A DNA stretch of 33,743 bases from Fidelibacterota bacterium CG1_02_48_14 (GTDB lineage Bacteria; Fidelibacterota; UBA8477): positions 1 to 33,743 of the forward strand of contig MNWS01000226.1 in assembly GCA_001872685.1 (NCBI GenBank), in the 5' to 3' direction. A program made the translations under genes and the position numbers. A model generated the notes under the pieces. It did no database searches and was not told the DNA's origin. It saw only the letters and a list, made by a program, of their open reading frames with translations. Shown one piece after another: positions 23,590 to 32,604 of this stretch; position 1 is the first letter of the stretch; the number at the start of each line of letters is the position of its first letter.

Positions 23590-23817
23590 TGCCGGATCAT
23601 CACATAAAGGTCGCCTTCTGAATTATCCATTCCGGTGGTGGATTAAGTTATGAATCCGCAAAAACAATCCTATCAAATTTCCTTAATGTGGAATCCGCAA
23701 CGGTATCGTGACCCTTTCAGGGCACCATTTTTTAACGGGAAATCGTGACAAATGGACCAATTAACCGAATCAAGACTATTAATGTTTCAATAGTTGGTTA
23801 ATAGATTACCTTTGCCG

Positions 23818-24174
23818 ATGAATATGCCAGACAAACTCAATATTTTGAATGAGTCGATCCGCGCGTTTATTGAGGAGCGGGATTGGGAACAATTCCATTC
23901 ACCCAAAAATTTGGCCATGGCACTGAGTGTGGAGGCTGGTGAGTTACAGGAACATTTTCTGTGGCTGACACAGGCTGAGAGTCGAGAATTGACACCGGGT
24001 AACCTTTCTGAAGTCGAAGATGAAATTGGCGATGTCATGGTATATTTATTGCGGTTGTGCGATGTATTGGGAGTTGATCCCATTCGGGCGGCAACCCAAA
24101 AAATGGTGAAAAACGGAGTGAAATACCCAGTTGAGAAGTCTCGTGGAAACGCCAAAAAATACACCGATTTGTGA
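23818..24174 (+). CDS. MazG-like nucleotide pyrophosphohydrolase
   Basis: HSPKNLAMALSVEAGELQEHFLW...EVEDEIGDVMVYLLRLCDVLGVDP matches the MazG/dCTPase EExxE...ExxD pattern. ATG at 23818 is preferred to TTG at 23794. Confidence 0.9.
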   Translation: MNMPDKLNILNESIRAFIEERDWEQFHSPKNLAMALSVEAGELQEHFLWLTQAESRELTPGNLSEVEDEIGDVMVYLLRLCDVLGVDPIRAATQKMVKNGVKYPVEKSRGNAKKYTDL

Positions 24175-24291: not shown

Positions 24292-24696
24292 ATGAATCAA
24301 ACAGAAAAAACGTTTGCAGATTATAAAGGGACTGAAAATGTTCTGGTTGTGGAGGACGAAGAGATGACCAGAAATATGGTAACAGAGATATTGGAAGGAT
24401 TGGGCTACACAGTTCTGAATGCTCCGAATGCCGAGACTGCCATCGAAATTTCTGACGATTTTGAGGACGATATTCACCTCCTGCTCTCGGATGTCATCAT
24501 GCCACTCATGAATGGTAAACAATTGTCTAATCAACTAGCCATGTCCCGCCCCACCATGAAAGTGCTGTTTATGTCCGGCTATACCGACAACATGCTGGCG
24601 CCTTACGGCATTCTCGAGGAAAATATTCACTTCCTGCAAAAGCCATTTTCTGTCAAGATTCTGACCCAAAAAGTACGCGAGACGCTTGATAGCTAG
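24292..24696 (+). CDS. Stand-alone response regulator receiver protein
   Basis: VLVVEDEEMTRN, LLLSDVIMPLMNGKQ, VLFMSGYTDN, FLQKPFS; no output domain. Confidence 0.92.
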   Translation: MNQTEKTFADYKGTENVLVVEDEEMTRNMVTEILEGLGYTVLNAPNAETAIEISDDFEDDIHLLLSDVIMPLMNGKQLSNQLAMSRPTMKVLFMSGYTDNMLAPYGILEENIHFLQKPFSVKILTQKVRETLDS

Positions 24697-24879: not shown

Positions 24880-27800
24880 ATGGCTCATGCGAATAAATTT
24901 GGCACTTTCAGCGGCGTTTTCACACCCGCGATCCTGACAATTCTGGGCGTCATCATGTACATGCGTCTGCCGTCAATCGTGGGTCAGGTTGGTCTGATTG
25001 CCACCCTGGGTATTATCCTCTTGGCGCACGTCATTTCGGTGACAACCGGACTCAGCGTCTCCTCTATTGCAACGGATAAAAAGGTGAAAGCCGGCGGCAC
25101 CTATTACATGATTTCCCGGAGTTTGGGATTGCCCATTGGTGGTACGCTTGGTTTAGCGCTCTTCGTCGGTCTCTCCTTCAGTGTCAGTTTGTACATCATC
25201 GGATTTTCTGAAAGCTTCATCAATTTTTGGGGTTGGAGCATCAATAAGAATACGATTCGACTGGTGGGTTCCGGTGTTTTGGTTCTGGTCACGACCGTAA
25301 CCTTTATCAGTACCGCTCTGGCGATCAAAACCCAGTATTTCATCATGGCTGCAATTGTTCTGTCATTGGCATCGATATTTCTGGGGTCACACGGAACCAC
25401 ATCAGTGCCGCACATTGCCCTGCCAACGACCGCGGTACCACTTGTGGTTCTTTTCGCGATTTACTTTCCGGCGGTCACCGGTTTTGAAGCCGGTGTTTCC
25501 ATGTCCGGTGATCTGAAAGATCCGAAACGCTCAATCCCAATCGGCACGATCACCGCTATTTCGGTTGGGCTGGTTGTCTATGTTACCATGGCAATCTTTT
25601 TTGCTTACCGTGTAGACCCGGACGAGTTGGTAAACAATCCAAACGTGTTGTTGGAGATTTCACTTTTTCCCCCACTGGTTCTGGCGGGCATTTGGGGCGC
25701 TACGATTTCATCGGCATTGGGAAGTATTCTGGGGGCACCGCGCATTCTCCAGGCGATTTCAGCCGATCGCATTACACCCCGGATTTTTGCCACCGGTGTT
25801 GGGAAGGAAAACGAACCCCGGAACGCACTGCTCCTGACTTTCATGATCGCTGAAGTCGGAATCTTAATCGGAGAATTGGATGTTATCGCCCGGGTTGTGA
25901 CCATGTTTTTCATCATGACCTATGGATTTTTGAATACCAGTTGCGCGATTGAAAGCTGGGCTAGTCCTGATTTCCGGCCCGATTTTAAAATCCCAAAAAC
26001 GGTGAGCATTATTGGCGCATTAGCAGCGTTTTTGGTGATGATTCAATTGGACTTTGTGGCCATGATCGGCGCAACATTGATTCTGGGAGCGCTCTTTTTT
26101 TACCTCAAACGCCGTGAATTGACGCTGGAATCCGGTGATACCTGGGAGGGTGTCTGGTCATCACTCGTACGAACTGCACTGCACCGCTTGAGCAAAGGTG
26201 AGGTTCATCAGCGTAACTGGCGACCCAATCTGATCTTATTCAGTGGCGGTAAAGGAGCTCGACCACATCTGGTTGAATTGGGACGGTGGTTGGTCGCCCG
26301 GCGTGGCATATTGTCCGATTTTCAGCTCATCGAAAATCCCAAAGTTTCGAGTCTGGTGATCCGGAACCGTAAGGAAATTGAGCTCGCAAATGCCGCGATT
26401 CCGGAAGAGGAGAATTTTACGGGTCGCTTCGTCCGCCGGGCTGAAACGAACGACATCTATGCCACGATGCAGGAAATCGTCAAATTCTATGGTTTTGCCG
26501 GGGTGGAGCCGAATTCTGTTTTATTGGGCTGGGGGCGGAATAGTCGTGAACCAAAAAAGTTCGTGGACGTTTTGGCGACCTTGCAACAGATGGATTATAA
26601 TGTTTTACTGCTGGATCATGATGATGTACGCGGCTTCGGTGACCACGCCAGCGTTGACATCTGGTGGCGGGGTGGCGGAAATAATATTAGTCTGGCGTTA
26701 GCGCTCATTCGTTTTCTGGCTTCAAGTGACGATTGGCGGGAAGCCAACATCCGACTTCTCATCGTGAATGATGATGAAAGTGCGTTGCGGGAAACCATTC
26801 TCAAACATGCCAACAACATTTTGGAAGAGTACCGCCTGGACGCCGATGTCAAAGTCATCAATAATGCCATTGAGCAGAAAAATTTCCAGGAAATTATTCG
26901 GGTTGAGTCGGCCCATTCAGATTTTACAATCATCGGAATCCCACCGCTGAACACTCGGGATCCACTGAGTTATGTGGATTTCGTGAATCAGATCGCCAAC
27001 GACCTGGGATCGGTTCTCTTGATCCATGCCTCGTCATTTTTTGAAGAATTGTATGTGGGCATTAATCAGGAAAGTACCGCCGCGCCGGATGAAATCAACA
27101 TTCTGGCGATGGAATCGTCCAACCTGCCGGTGGTTGTTCCGCCCCGGGCTGAGTTGACAGCCAGCGCCATTGAACGGCTCACCGCGGCTCTGGACCAAAT
27201 GAACATCAGGTTGACCGATCAGCATCTGTACAAGGTCATTTCACAACAACTGGCTTTGATCGGGCAATTCCAGGATTTAACTGAACGAAGTTTTGATGCC
27301 TTAGAGCGCAATTTCACCAAAGATGCCAGGCTTCGTAATCGTCGGGCTTTGCTCCGGGTAAACAGCGATTTTCTTTTCCAGGCTCAACGGCTGCTCACCG
27401 AATTCCGTCAGACGGATTTGCCGCTTCAGAAAGCAGCTTTGACGGATGGTGTCGAACATCACCGCAGCCAGATAAAAGAGCTGATTGCAGCCCAGCCCGG
27501 ATCCATCACCCTTGCCTTTACCCGAAGTGAGTACAGGAGCGCAAAGGAAAGCGGTTACCTGATGCGGCAGTATCAATTCTGGAAAAGATTCAGCGCTAAA
27601 CTTTCACGCAAAAATGTCATTTCTCACCAGGTAAAATTCCGGGAATTGGTTGCCGGGCAACTCGCCAACAAATACGATCCGATGTTGTTGAGCGTCCTTG
27701 AGCGATTCGGCATTTACAGCTATCAAACCGTTGCCGACCTCCAAAAGGCGATCAGTTTAGTCCGGGAAAGCTTTGGCATATTGGAAAATCGCATTCTTGC

Positions 27801-30051
27801 GGGGGAAGGTTTCCCCATCGAACAATTGTATGCTCAGCGCAAGCAGGTTTTGGCGGGGACGGAGAGAATTGCAGAGGTTCTAAAAGAACGTCAGGCGCAA
27901 CTGCGGCATATTCTGCTGAAAGAGACCCGGGAAATTCTCATACAACTCAGCCATACGGCCGATCATATAGATTCGAATCATTGGGTTCCGAAGGAATTCA
28001 AACCCAATAAGCAGTCCATGACGGTTTCTGACACTCTCACGGAATTGTCGGAACGCTGGTTCGGGAATCAGGCTGATTTCCTGGAAATGGCCGTCCTGGA
28101 TGTCCAATTATTAGCGTTACAAAATCGGCTGGGAACGATTGTCGAGCGGATGAAAGATGACGTAACCCTTCGCATCCAAAATACGGTTTTGGGTGAGTTG
28201 GCCGGTTTGCGGGACGAGCTGAATACCCTCAAAGCGAGCGCATCGAAAAATTCACCGGTTCGAAACAACCATTTCACCTACGATGCTCCGGTCCCGCTGG
28301 ACCCCATCGCTGTCATGAACGAATTGTTAGTGGAAGTACATGCCGCTACCAGGGATTTACCCGAGAATGTTGATGTCATCAGCGAAGCGGCCATGAATGA
28401 TCTGGAAGCTCATCAGTTCGAGGAACAGGAGGTTCTGACAATCGCTTTGCGACGCCTGGCTGAATACATTGTGGAATCAGAATTCCTGGGACCCCTCCAG
28501 GAACGGATGAATCAATTACCAAATATTTTTCAGGGAGCACAGACTGTCGCTCAGGATGTCTTGCGCTTGACGACATTCGATTTGATTGAGACCGAAAGCA
28601 ATGAGACGCTCACCGATTTCGCACAGCATGAGACGCGGCAGAAAATTCTCATCAACGGTGATAATCGACTCGCAGAGGAACTAACCCGGATACAGCAGGT
28701 ACAGGATGATTTGGGAACCTTCATTCAGCAGCAGTTCAGGAAAACCAAAGATCAATTGAATCCGTATAGTATTGTTCATTCAGCGGACACTTACCAGCAA
28801 TACATTCGCGGCCGCCGAACCCGGGGTGTGGTCACACGTTTTCAGCGCACCCGCCTGCAAGTGGAGCGCTTCACCACTGAAAAATTTGTGCAATTGCTGT
28901 ATCGGCGGAGTGAAGGCGTTCTTTTCGCGCGCCGACTCCAGGCCGACAAACAATCGTCACAAACGATTACTGATAAAATGCTGAATTTGTTGGATCAGGT
29001 GACACCGAAGCCGGAAATCGTTGAGAATTTGCCTTTTTACTACAAACAACTCTTTTTGGGCAAACCGACTATAACGAACGATTTTTGGATAGGTCGCGAG
29101 CACGAATTAGAGCTCGCCGATAAGGCGGTTGGCCGATTCAACCGGGGCTATGGTGGTGCTCTGTTCATTATTGGTGAAGAGCACATGGGCAAATCGGCGT
29201 TGGCACAATTCATCGCCTCCCGGCATTATGAAAAGCATCGTATTTTCACCATCAACCCGCCGGACAGCGGTAGTACATCGCTGGAAGAATTCACCCGGCG
29301 GCTGCAACAAGCGGTTGAGATGACCAGTGGACCGGATGAAATATTGGGTCAGTTGACCAATAGGAATGTGGTGGTTTTTAATGATGTTGAATTGTGGTGG
29401 GAGCGGAGTGATTCAGGTTGGGCGGTGTTGCAGGAGCTACTAAATCTTATTCGACAATACAGTCGCCAAACACTGATGATCCTGAACCTGAATCAGTACA
29501 CCTACAATTTTCTGGCACCCATGTGTGACTTTCAGGAATTAGCCTTAAGTGTCATCGAATGTGAGCCCTATGACGCTGAGGAGCTGAAAAATATCATTCT
29601 GTTACGTCATCGTTCCACGGGTCTGCGATTCGAATGGGATGGCATTGAGGATGCAGATATTTCCGAATGGAAGTTGGCTAAGTTGTTCACGGGACTCTTT
29701 GACTATTCCCGGGGCAATGTAGGTGCTGCCTTGCGTGCCTGGATAGCGGCTATTCATAAAAATACCAAGGGGAAACTAATTCTAAAATTGCGGCCCTATC
29801 CGGATACCAGCGCTCTGCGTGGACTGGATGTGGAATCAATCACGCTAATGCTCCAATTCGTCCTGCATAAGCGCATGAATCGAGAGAAAATTGCCCGCAT
29901 TACGAGGTGGTCAACAGATCAGATTGAGAATCAAATCCAGTTCCTGCAAAACACCGGATTGATAACGACCCAGGCGCAGGAAGTCCTGATTATCAACCCC
30001 TACCTGGAGTCTTTCCTCATTCGTAATCTGAAAGAGCGGGGGTACCTGTAA
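24880..30051 (+). CDS. SLC12/cation-chloride-cotransporter-like transporter fused to a long helical region, a STAND/AAA-like ATPase and a winged-helix-like tail (1723 aa)
   Basis: Single uninterrupted ORF. N-terminus [19 protein letters not shown] and [41 protein letters not shown] and [16 protein letters not shown] match SLC12 C-terminal domain hallmarks; then WIGREHEL, Walker A [9 protein letters not shown], Walker B-like VVVFNDVEL. Confidence 0.9.
   Translation: [1723 protein letters not shown]
29086..29700 (+). other. STAND/AAA-like NTPase domain inside the 1723-aa fusion
   Basis: WIGREHEL at 29086-29109, Walker A [9 protein letters not shown] at 29173-29199, Walker B-like [10 protein letters not shown] at 29365-29394. 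The right boundary is approximate. Confidence 0.75.
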
Positions 30052-30785
30052 TGGATATGCTCTCCTTTGATGTCTCTGAATATCTCATCGTGAAATATGT
30101 GCTGCTGGGGTTGTTACTGGTGGGTGTATTGATTGGACTGCGGAAGGGTTTGCATCTGATCCAACTGAAGCCAACGACGCGTGAACGCATTGATCGCTCG
30201 TTGCCTCTGGTGGAAGCACTGATGGGATTGATTTTCATCGTCCTCGCGGCTCACTCGATTTTTCAAAACCAACCAACTTATTTCATGGTGCTATTTAGCG
30301 CGATTCTTGTCATTCTGGTTTGGAGCTTTTGGTTCGCCATTCAGGATTTTGTCAGTGGTCTGATTTTGAAATGGGAGGACACTTACACGGTAGGTGATCT
30401 GCTCACAGTCGAATCGGAGACGGGTCGGGTAATCCGGGTCGGGTACCGTTCCTTGATGATTGAAACAGCGGATGGTCAACGCATCAAGTTCCCCTATTCG
30501 CATTTGACCCGAACCCAGGTTCACAAGCTGGATGCAGATGAAGTGGTCTGGGCACACACATTCCAAATGGCGGTTCCATTAATGGATGCTCCCGAAGTAA
30601 TGATGAAGCGAATCATTCTGGCTGCGACTAATGTCGTTTGGTCGGCGGTCAATCGGGTTCCACAGGTCGTCTTCCAGGGGGTTCAGAATGGTGTGCAACT
30701 ATTTGAAATTACAGTATATGTGCTGGATCCTAACCGCCGCAGTACCATCGAGTCGCGTATACGGGAATCGCTGGGTAACACATAA
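30051..30785 (+). CDS. MscS-like mechanosensitive channel family protein
   Basis: TM helices followed by FAIQDFVSGLILKWEDTYTVGDLLTVESETGRVIRVGYRSLMIETADGQRIKFPYSHL, the MscS pore/beta-domain pattern. The start overlaps the upstream stop (TAATG). Confidence 0.87.
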   Translation: MDMLSFDVSEYLIVKYVLLGLLLVGVLIGLRKGLHLIQLKPTTRERIDRSLPLVEALMGLIFIVLAAHSIFQNQPTYFMVLFSAILVILVWSFWFAIQDFVSGLILKWEDTYTVGDLLTVESETGRVIRVGYRSLMIETADGQRIKFPYSHLTRTQVHKLDADEVVWAHTFQMAVPLMDAPEVMMKRIILAATNVVWSAVNRVPQVVFQGVQNGVQLFEITVYVLDPNRRSTIESRIRESLGNT

Positions 30786-30804: not shown

Positions 30805-30840
30805 AAAAAATGCCGACGCAAAGGTCGGCATTTTTTATTT
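30805..30840. terminator. Bidirectional intrinsic terminator between the convergent MscS-like and M56-TonB genes
   Basis: AAAAAATGCCGAC (30805-30817) pairs with GTCGGCATTTTTT (30824-30836); the stem is flanked by an A-tract and a T-tract. Confidence 0.93.
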
Positions 30841-30863: not shown

Positions 30864-31322
30864 TTATTTATTTTTAAAATCGGTCTTTTCTGGCGAGAGT
30901 CTAAAGACGACCGGAATGGTAATCACAGCCTCAACGGGTTGGTTGTGCAGCATCGCCGGATTCCAGGTAACTTTCTCGATTGCCGCCACAGCAGCTTCAT
31001 TCAATCCACCTTCCGGGATACCCCTGACCACCTGCGATTGAACGGCTGCGCCAGTAATGGAAATTTTTGTCTGAACAATGACGGTTCCTTGAATGCCGGC
31101 TTTTCTCGCCAAATCCGGATATTGAACCGCTCTTTGAATCGCACCGTAACCACCCAATGGCTCCGGTGGCGTATCGAAGTTCACTGCGATGCTATCTTCC
31201 ATTGTCTTGGCAAGTGAATGATCCGACTCCGAATGCGCGGTGAGGCGATCATCCTTACCCATGTTACAACTCACAACCAATGCCAATACAACGACCATTC
31301 CCATGAGCATTTTATGATACAT
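30864..31322 (-). CDS. Putative internally initiated TonB-domain lipoprotein, in frame within the M56-TonB ORF (152 aa)
   Basis: On the minus strand GGAGGAGGG-ACTTAAG-ATG (SD complement at 31330-31338, ATG at 31322-31320) starts MYHKMLMGMVVVLALVVSCNMGKDD, which carries a lipobox-like LVVSC. Confidence 0.5.
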   Translation of the reverse strand: MYHKMLMGMVVVLALVVSCNMGKDDRLTAHSESDHSLAKTMEDSIAVNFDTPPEPLGGYGAIQRAVQYPDLARKAGIQGTVIVQTKISITGAAVQSQVVRGIPEGGLNEAAVAAIEKVTWNPAMLHNQPVEAVITIPVVFRLSPEKTDFKNK

Positions 31323-32216
31323 CTTAAGTCCCTCCTCCAAATCTGATTGTTTGCGGACGATATATTCAAACCGCCTTACCAGGCTGTGTTTGGTGAAAAA
31401 AAATCCACTGGCTAACACGGCATGGTGGACATGATTGGTGGATCGTTCAAGCTGATTCAGCAAATTCCGACCGTAGCCTTTGCGATCCGCATTAGTCGCG
31501 CGGATGGCAGCGTCGTCACAAATGCGCTCGCGTTCCAAATCCATCTGGTCATTCAACAACCAAATGGCAGGATGAAACCAATAGATCATTTTAACGATGG
31601 CTTGCAGATGAATCACCGCGAGATCCAGTCGTCTGATGTGAGCCATTTCATGGGCGATGACGCTGAGTATTTCGGAATCTGACCAATTTACAACGGTGTC
31701 TGGCAGGTAAATCCGGGGTCTTAATAATCCCAGTGAGAATGGATTTTGAACGTCCGGCGAAATCAGGATGAAGGGCGTTCGGGAAAGCTTCTGACTGGTG
31801 AGAAAGGCGTTGATGCGAGTCGGGACGATCCAAGGTGTTGCATCTCCAAGGGTCTTTCGGAATCGGATGTCATTCACCACCAATCTGACCAGGAAAAACA
31901 TCGCACCACCTAACCACAGACTGACGATCAATAGTGCTATAGTTATCGTTGAGTTACTGCCACCGCCTAAAGTAACCTGGGGAAGTTGGGTGATAAAATT
32001 CGCTGACTGACGCTGAATGGTTGTATTTACAAGTTCTATTGGCAGGTTGAAGGGCAACAGTGCCTTAAGAAGCAAAATACTCCATAATCCGTAAGCAAAT
32101 TCAGGATGCGAATTTCTGCTGATTCTTGAAATTGGCCAGATAAGGAGTGTCAGAAATGCCAGTTGCCAGGATGATTGCCAAAGCATGGATAACACAGTGG
32201 AGAAAAAATCAACCAT
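30864..32216 (-). CDS. M56 family (BlaR1-like) membrane metallopeptidase with C-terminal TonB-like domain
   Basis: HEXXH in VIAHEMAHIRRLDL; four predicted TM helices; C-terminal YPDLARKAGIQGTVIVQTKIS...ITIPVVFRL is TonB_C-like. Overlaps the BlaI-like gene by 8 bp. Confidence 0.92.
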   Translation of the reverse strand: MVDFFSTVLSMLWQSSWQLAFLTLLIWPISRISRNSHPEFAYGLWSILLLKALLPFNLPIELVNTTIQRQSANFITQLPQVTLGGGSNSTITIALLIVSLWLGGAMFFLVRLVVNDIRFRKTLGDATPWIVPTRINAFLTSQKLSRTPFILISPDVQNPFSLGLLRPRIYLPDTVVNWSDSEILSVIAHEMAHIRRLDLAVIHLQAIVKMIYWFHPAIWLLNDQMDLERERICDDAAIRATNADRKGYGRNLLNQLERSTNHVHHAVLASGFFFTKHSLVRRFEYIVRKQSDLEEGLKMYHKMLMGMVVVLALVVSCNMGKDDRLTAHSESDHSLAKTMEDSIAVNFDTPPEPLGGYGAIQRAVQYPDLARKAGIQGTVIVQTKISITGAAVQSQVVRGIPEGGLNEAAVAAIEKVTWNPAMLHNQPVEAVITIPVVFRLSPEKTDFKNK

Positions 32217-32604
32217 TTTGATCCTCCGCTTCCTTCAGCATTTGCCGGATGACTAGAATATCCTCCGGTTGCAAATTGATATTAGGCAGAAGAAAAGCGG
32301 CCAGCCGGCTGGCAGATCCACCAAAAACCTGGTTTACGAAGTGGCTTGTCGCGCCTTCGACGACGCTGGAACGGTTCACCGTGGCGGTATAGAAATTCAC
32401 CAGCCCAAGTTTTTCCTTTTGCAGGTAACCCTTTTCCACGAGACGCTCCAAATAGGTCTGAATGGTTGTATAAGCGCGCCGGTGTTCAACCGGTAAAGCC
32501 TCCATGACCTCTCTGGCGGTCTGTCGACTCTTCTCCCAAATTCGATTCATGATAGTCCACTCGAATTTACTCAACGGTTCAAGATTTTTCTGCCTGTGGC
32601 CCAT
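32209..32604 (-). CDS. BlaI/MecI/CopY family transcriptional repressor
   Basis: LSKFEWTIMNRIWEKSRQTAREVMEAL...AYTTIQTYLERLVEKGYLQKEK winged-helix pattern. Confidence 0.93.
   Translation of the reverse strand: MGHRQKNLEPLSKFEWTIMNRIWEKSRQTAREVMEALPVEHRRAYTTIQTYLERLVEKGYLQKEKLGLVNFYTATVNRSSVVEGATSHFVNQVFGGSASRLAAFLLPNINLQPEDILVIRQMLKEAEDQNG

Follow-up and report, generated by a model that had tools for sequence, protein, structure and literature searches.

Does a gene for an MscS-like channel that overlaps the end of a gene for a carrier-ATPase fusion belong with the carrier or with the ATPase? The question is raised by a contig of the 3.0-Mb draft genome of Fidelibacterota bacterium CG1_02_48_14 (MNWS01000226.1; "the window" below means this whole stretch of 33,743 nucleotides), in which an open reading frame (ORF) of 1723 amino acids (aa), running from an ATG to a TAA and predicted to join a cation-chloride cotransporter (CCC) to an ATPase, is followed by a 244-aa ORF for an MscS-like protein (coordinates in Table 1). 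A previous, sequence-only reading of this locus had proposed an influx/efflux module, that is, CCC-like uptake under ATPase control paired with MscS-like release. The comparisons reported here show instead that the ATPase is strongly coupled, genetically, to MscS-family clades of its own, and that the system is broader than an influx/efflux pair since MscS stays with the ATPase where there is no CCC.

The final A of the TAA of the 1723-aa ORF is also the first base of the ATG of the 244-aa ORF (...CTGTAATGGATATG...), and the stop-start TAATG overlap noted previously is thus confirmed by both the ORF coordinates and the sequence. The same TAATG is found in all three members of the genus and in a genome from a different family of the same phylum (G220), and ATGA or a similar overlap is present at the junctions of three more fusion loci, which argues that the overlap is not due to chance. 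Further, a genome-wide profile search revealed only three MscS genes in the window genome, so that a random gene would have an MscS gene as its next neighbor with a chance of about 0.1%.

To place the locus in context, we sampled one genome per family across the domain and then searched the phyla with matches. Homologues of the CCC-ATPase fusion were found at eight loci in four phylum-level groups, and all eight had an MscS-like neighbor, downstream with a 1-4 bp overlap at seven loci and divergent at one (genome G392); hence, the neighborhood survey that the sequence-only reading had named as its own refutation test did not refute it. Among named relatives, two Candidatus Neomarinimicrobiota metagenome-assembled genomes (Tobar14m) come nearest, and both carry the same fusion, the TAATG and a 250-aa MscS-like protein; G220 shows the same arrangement, and the wider sampling added G322, G348, G392 and G399. 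A match in G227 was ruled out as a fusion homologue, being an unrelated cyclase-STAND protein. The MscS frame of G322 is seemingly broken by a frameshift near residue 75 (locus L080, 11012-11766), and in G392 the divergent MscS gene is followed by one for a 966-aa NB-ARC/TPR protein (L097, 9914-12811).

The pairing persists where the ATPase has no carrier attached. Standalone ATPases without a transporter (about 1000-1060 aa where complete) were found in G008, G013, G056, G348, G388, G399 and G431, with MscS directly downstream at 7/7 loci (in G013 and G399, the contig ends within the ATPase gene). In the phylum of G388, a form of 820-860 aa begins with a domain resembling a voltage sensor (Ion_trans matches at 1.7e-7 in G424, over profile positions 3-112, and at 0.003 in G455; KCNQ1, 1e-3). 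MscS is the next gene in all seven genomes with this form; two of the seven loci run into a contig end. In G424 and G422, the voltage-sensor-ATPase gene is followed by an MscS gene, a CASTOR/POLLUX-type channel gene and two more MscS genes (this row of four lies at L102, 8270-12956). The pair also occurs on named alphaproteobacterial plasmids (Novosphingobium, Caulobacter), with MscS beside the ATPase in 3/3 cases. Specifically, a plasmid search with the ATPase core of the window gave Novosphingobium matches at 7e-4 to 7e-3, which directly precede the positions matched separately by the G008 MscS; the annotation there lists an AAA family ATPase and, 2 bp on, a mechanosensitive channel family protein, and the relation was confirmed by our ATPase-core profile (1e-38). 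Caulobacter sp. NIBR2454 has the same ATPase-MscS pair with an ATGA overlap. The plasmid search with one standalone ATPase as query returned no match. Collectively, these forms show that the N-terminus of the ATPase is modular, being an NKCC-like carrier, a voltage-sensor-like domain, a region of multiple transmembrane (TM) segments, or nothing recognizable. Near the ATPase-MscS pair in two phyla, we also observed a RimK-Zn_protease-deacylase cluster (L011, 1874-3136, minus strand; L102, 3259-5622, plus strand), and in G008, RimK includes a TrkA_C domain.

More distant relatives extend the pattern. A weak profile match in G291 led to an ATPase relative of about 400 aa without Walker A, the gene of which overlaps an MscS gene; we took the group to be Cyanobacteria because PsaA/PsaB were present in the two genomes tested and, of the control genomes, only Synechococcus matched. 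The Walker-A-less relative was found in 20 of 291 genomes, and MscS was adjacent at 20/22 loci and one gene away in G506. In G660, the ATPase-like and MscS parts even lie in one 711-aa ORF (L136, 55-2190, minus strand), while its genus relatives have separate genes with an ATGA overlap; the single ORF may stem from an error in sequencing or from a frameshift that fused the genes recently. The Walker-A-less proteins suggest that ATPase and MscS could remain in contact after the ability to bind ATP is lost.

The MscS partners themselves are distinct. In the MscS tree, the partners of the fused form make up one clade (support 100/100) and those of the other forms, including the Alphaproteobacteria, another (96/96), both apart from the unpartnered MscS of the same genomes; several branches are long. 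G348 and G399 each hold two forms, and their MscS proteins group by form, not by genome (e.g., the fused and standalone ATPases of G348 are each paired with a different type of MscS). ATPase and MscS distances are also correlated (r=0.81 for 17 pairs and 0.68 for the 14 pairs left without near copies, with 0/5000 permutations as high), a correlation that owes part of its strength to shared descent.

On balance, we lean towards the hypothesis that the ATPase acts as a controller dedicated to the MscS protein with which it is paired and, in the window, controls the NKCC-like carrier as well, serving ionic and osmotic balance. The ATPase, possibly as an oligomer, would then sit at the cytosolic side of the membrane and work as a switch set by its ATP/ADP state, binding the beta/cage part of MscS and setting its gating or assembly, such that solute loss would depend on energy or ionic state besides tension. 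Since the same polypeptide carries the Na+/K+/Cl- uptake carrier in the window, the switch could coordinate salt uptake (volume increase) with MscS release (volume decrease) there, with the stop-start overlap keeping the two products in a fixed ratio. We infer the physical complex, the ATP-dependent gating, the transport and the volume control from sequence comparisons. A bolder version, to which we would give somewhat less than an even chance, is that there is a widespread, as yet undescribed class of ATP-switched MscS, in which an ORC/STAND ATPase with interchangeable ion-sensing or ion-transporting front ends gates a dedicated MscS, and that in the window lineage a single volume-control machine unites an NKCC-like carrier with an MscS-type exit.

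Several observations weigh against a dedicated controller. One ATPase-core locus has no MscS gene (G348, contig C169): its product, a 1544-aa protein with about ten hydrophobic segments and the ATPase core, is encoded beside a gyrase-like gene (L098, 6729-11363, minus strand). The N-terminus of this protein resembles a CPA/Kef antiporter by eye; it had no match in Pfam, NCBIfam, PDB or plasmids and is called multi-TM only. G509 has no MscS in the flanks of its Walker-A-less relative, and ATP hydrolysis cannot be essential everywhere given that the cyanobacterial ATPase-like proteins have no Walker A. The structural model of the ATPase is of low confidence (mean pLDDT 53.9, AAA core mostly 60-80) and too weak for assessing contacts, and the carrier scores below the curated cut-off of the K-Cl cotransporter subfamily model TIGR00930 (391.5 vs. 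953.4 bits). Finally, it is uncertain whether the MscS-like protein of the window conducts: its TM3 is bulky and lacks the Gly/Ala pattern, which casts doubt on its role as a pore; the protein may not be a conducting channel.

The MscS-like identity of the 244-aa product, as originally proposed, is well founded: the beta-domain model PF00924 matches at 44.4 bits (cut-off, 20.2), the top sequence match in the PDB is MscM (E ~1e-8), and all 22 PDB matches with E <= 1e-3 in a fold search with its model are MscS family members, MscK/MscS being the best, with low TM-scores (0.2-0.3) and unreliable domain orientation. The model (mean pLDDT 63.8, moderate) has helices at residues 8-36, 41-73 and 76-109, then beta and then alpha/beta parts, as in MscS. 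Judged by domain and predicted topology, the protein is a member of the MscS superfamily. A Gly/Ala-rich, pore-lining TM3 is present in the partners of the standalone ATPases but lacking in the window (YFMVLFSAILVILVWSFWFAIQDFVSGLI), with 6/29 G+A+S and 8/29 aromatic residues in the window vs. 11-12/29 and 2-3/29, respectively, in the former. Consequently, of the proposed MscS "release", superfamily membership holds up and the release-channel part is weakened.

An alternative hypothesis is that, at the fusion loci, the short MscS-like protein does not serve as a channel but as a membrane-anchored beta/cage scaffold that docks or oligomerizes the ATPase. The bulky, Gly/Ala-poor TM3 is shared by the window genus and G220 (6/29 small, 7-8 aromatic residues), and the partner in G431 is cut down to 177 aa with one TM segment plus the beta and C-terminal parts; both speak for a scaffold. 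However, the window protein keeps three TM helices and the full MscS topology in its model, the partner of the G348 fusion is intermediate and keeps several TM3 glycines, and a canonical TM3 (10-12/29 small residues) is seen in the partners of both the standalone and the voltage-sensor form, G431 excepted. We consider a scaffold unlikely, if the strongest of the alternatives.

A second alternative is that the essential link is between CCC uptake and MscS release, with the ATPase regulating the carrier only. The carrier itself fits the uptake part, which this alternative shares with the hypothesis favored above. Its best-matching KCC4 structure (E 5.8e-79 in the PDB search) covers aa 174-661, solo CCC proteins are about 710-755 aa long, and the protein has both the homologous APC-fold TM domain and the C-terminal domain of the SLC12 family; by these features, it is an SLC12 relative outside the TIGR00930 subfamily. 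It also retains the K+-site tyrosine and the TM8 di-serine of the Na+-coupled members, the TM8 stretch aligning to ATLSSALASLVSAPK of NKCC1 and STCGAGLQSLTGAPR of KCC4. The tyrosine has a K+-site role in KCC (PMC7200160), and the di-serine provides Na+ ligands conserved in Na+-transporting CCCs, with Gly-Ala in their place in KCCs (PMC7200160, PMC9784483). Because the NKCC-type Na+ and K+ site residues are retained, in 8/8 fusions, the carrier would mediate Na+/K+/Cl- uptake, and the "CCC-like uptake" of the earlier proposal was a fair prediction. The CCC domains of the fusions group on a single branch, separate from the solo bacterial CCCs (SH-aLRT 100), and their ATPase cores likewise share one branch (100/100); the fusion thus probably arose once and was later spread or kept.

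MscS does stand beside 8/8 fusions, in line with the module proposed originally. The phylum often has solo CCC genes (match in 49/244 genomes), and MscS is found in the flanks of 2 of the 26 solo loci inspected, both times divergent (L035 in G007 and L054 in G005), which hints at a second, weaker CCC-MscS link; the other 24 loci have none, and CCC-MscS linkage as a general rule is ruled out. In contrast, MscS stays with the ATPase at 17 loci without a CCC and with the Walker-A-less cyanobacterial relatives. The constant partner of MscS is therefore the ATPase, not the carrier, and we regard an essential CCC-MscS link as improbable, a little more so than the scaffold.

The remaining alternatives concern the ATPase, whose AAA+ domain and winged helix make up the C-terminal 350 residues of the 1723-aa protein. 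A profile of 17 relatives matches AAA+ chaperones best (6e-8) and ORC/Cdc6 more weakly, and the fold search with the ATPase model gives Cdc6/Orc1 as the best match, then NLR resistosomes and Avs4. A P-loop NTPase followed by a winged helix, as in STAND proteins, is supported by the Walker A motif and by the ORC/Cdc6 and NLR fold matches; the Pfam STAND models stay under their cut-offs in the window (nSTAND3, 13.8 vs. 27.2 bits), and a relative in L006 passes (nSTAND1, 30.9 vs. 27.1 bits). The sensor repeats of STAND proteins were not found: the protein stops after the winged helix, and no Pfam repeat family was detected in the ATPases examined. These fold neighbors and weak Pfam STAND matches raise the idea of NLR/Avs-like immunity, in which the ATPase would sense an invader and the MscS-like protein would be a membrane-damaging effector. 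This is very improbable, given that there was no convincing PADLOC or PHROGs match, that matches to defense models were weak fragments (E 3e-4 or worse), that the ATPase has no Pfam repeat sensor domain, and that it is joined at the N-terminus to ion carriers and voltage sensors and has ion genes among its neighbors (RimK-TrkA_C, CASTOR/POLLUX-type). Equally remote is co-transcription for dosage only, with the ATPase acting elsewhere, e.g., as a DNA-binding ORC-like factor that does not touch MscS: the ORC/Cdc6-type fold and winged helix would suit it, but the ATPase occurs fused to several kinds of membrane domain, the partner clades co-vary, and one locus has ATPase-like and MscS parts in a single ORF.

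The proposed "closed transcription unit" at this locus holds in part. A promoter scan, which says little for an uncultured phylum, gave no promoter-like match at the start of the MscS gene or the junction, nor just upstream of the fusion. However, a response-regulator gene (24292-24696), located 184 bp upstream of the fusion and kept in the genus, may share its transcription unit, and a convergent gene ends at the same terminator. This terminator scores on both strands, as stated previously, with its end at 30836 rather than 30840. A MazG-like gene (23794-24174) and the response-regulator gene precede the fusion in 3/3 genus members (L009, L010). On the other side lies a convergent, overlapping pair (30864-32216 and 32209-32604) encoding a BlaR1-type M56 peptidase with TonB_C and a penicillinase-repressor-like regulator, in place of which two genus relatives have a DUF72 gene.

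Table 1. Positions of the fusion gene, the MscS-like gene, their domains and the terminator in the window.
Feature	Position	Strand	Evidence
CCC-ATPase fusion gene, 1723 aa	24880..30051	+	same architecture at 7 other loci
APC-fold TM domain, CCC family, ~aa 1-415	24880..26124	+	Pfam AA_permease 7.5e-45; KCC/NKCC structures
Y75-Y76, K+-site tyrosine region by KCC4 alignment	25102..25107	+	alignment; Y[YF] in 8/8 fusions
S277-S278 of TM8 (ATISSALGS), Na+-site serines by NKCC1 alignment	25708..25713	+	kept in 8/8 fusions
CCC-type cytosolic C-terminal domain, ~aa 416-720	26125..27039	+	KCC4 PDB alignments reach aa 661
Long, mainly helical linker, ~aa 721-1375 (~650 residues)	27040..29004	+	alignments; poorly conserved between forms
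AAA+ ATPase domain, ORC/STAND type, ~aa 1376-1639	29005..29796	+	profile, alignment, fold search
Walker A GEEHMGKS	29173..29196	+	sequence motif
Winged-helix-like C-terminal domain	29797..30048	+	model secondary structure, full-length ORC/Cdc6 fold matches, alignment
MscS-like gene, 244 aa	30051..30785	+	Pfam, PDB, fold search
TM3 region, ~aa 76-105, bulky, few Gly/Ala	30276..30365	+	model helix 76-109; composition
MscS beta-domain, aa 97-158	30339..30524	+	Pfam PF00924 (MS_channel_2nd) 1.9e-11; 9.6e-12 in genome search
Bidirectional intrinsic terminator	30805..30836	both	perfect 13-pair inverted repeat, T-runs either side; common to convergent M56/TonB_C gene

MscS channels are tension-gated valves, and we know of no dedicated ATPase partner for them. 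With MscS, MscK and MscM of E. coli, the 244-aa protein has in common the beta-domain and the three-TM core, and it differs from them in its atypical TM3 and its ATPase gene partner. The fusion shares the TM domain, the K+/Na+-site residues and the CCC-type C-terminal domain with the SLC12 family (NKCC1, KCC4; the prokaryotic MaCCC), whereas the extra 1000-aa ATPase on its C-terminus sets it apart, and the fused carriers branch apart from the solo bacterial ones. Similarly, the ATPase has the P-loop AAA+ domain followed by a winged helix that is seen in ORC/Cdc6 and STAND proteins (NLR, Avs), yet no sensor repeats were found in ATPases of the window type, which are tied to membrane transporters and MscS; their matches to named Pfam families fall mostly under the cut-offs. 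In its working, the system would resemble Trk, Ktr and Kef, K+ channels and carriers under the control of RCK/TrkA domains that bind nucleotides, in that ion flux would be under a cytosolic nucleotide-sensing domain (one standalone locus is near a RimK with TrkA_C), although the controller here would be an AAA+/STAND ATPase rather than a Rossmann RCK domain. No ATPase-MscS or CCC-ATPase system was found described in the open-access full-text literature; the component families are known and the system appears new, a claim that is provisional since the search covered open-access papers only.

In conclusion, the locus represents a conserved bacterial system, seemingly not described before, which probably links ATP to the uptake and release of salt. 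If so, many bacteria would let ATP, or an ATPase switch that has degenerated, govern a channel for solute release, as the ATPase-MscS pair spans uncultured Neomarinimicrobiota, Cyanobacteria and Alphaproteobacteria. The idea is testable now because cultured carriers exist, such as Novosphingobium pentaromativorans US6-1, Caulobacter sp. NIBR2454 and cyanobacteria. Volume control based on NKCC is known from animals, and the CCC-fused form would be its ATPase-controlled bacterial counterpart.

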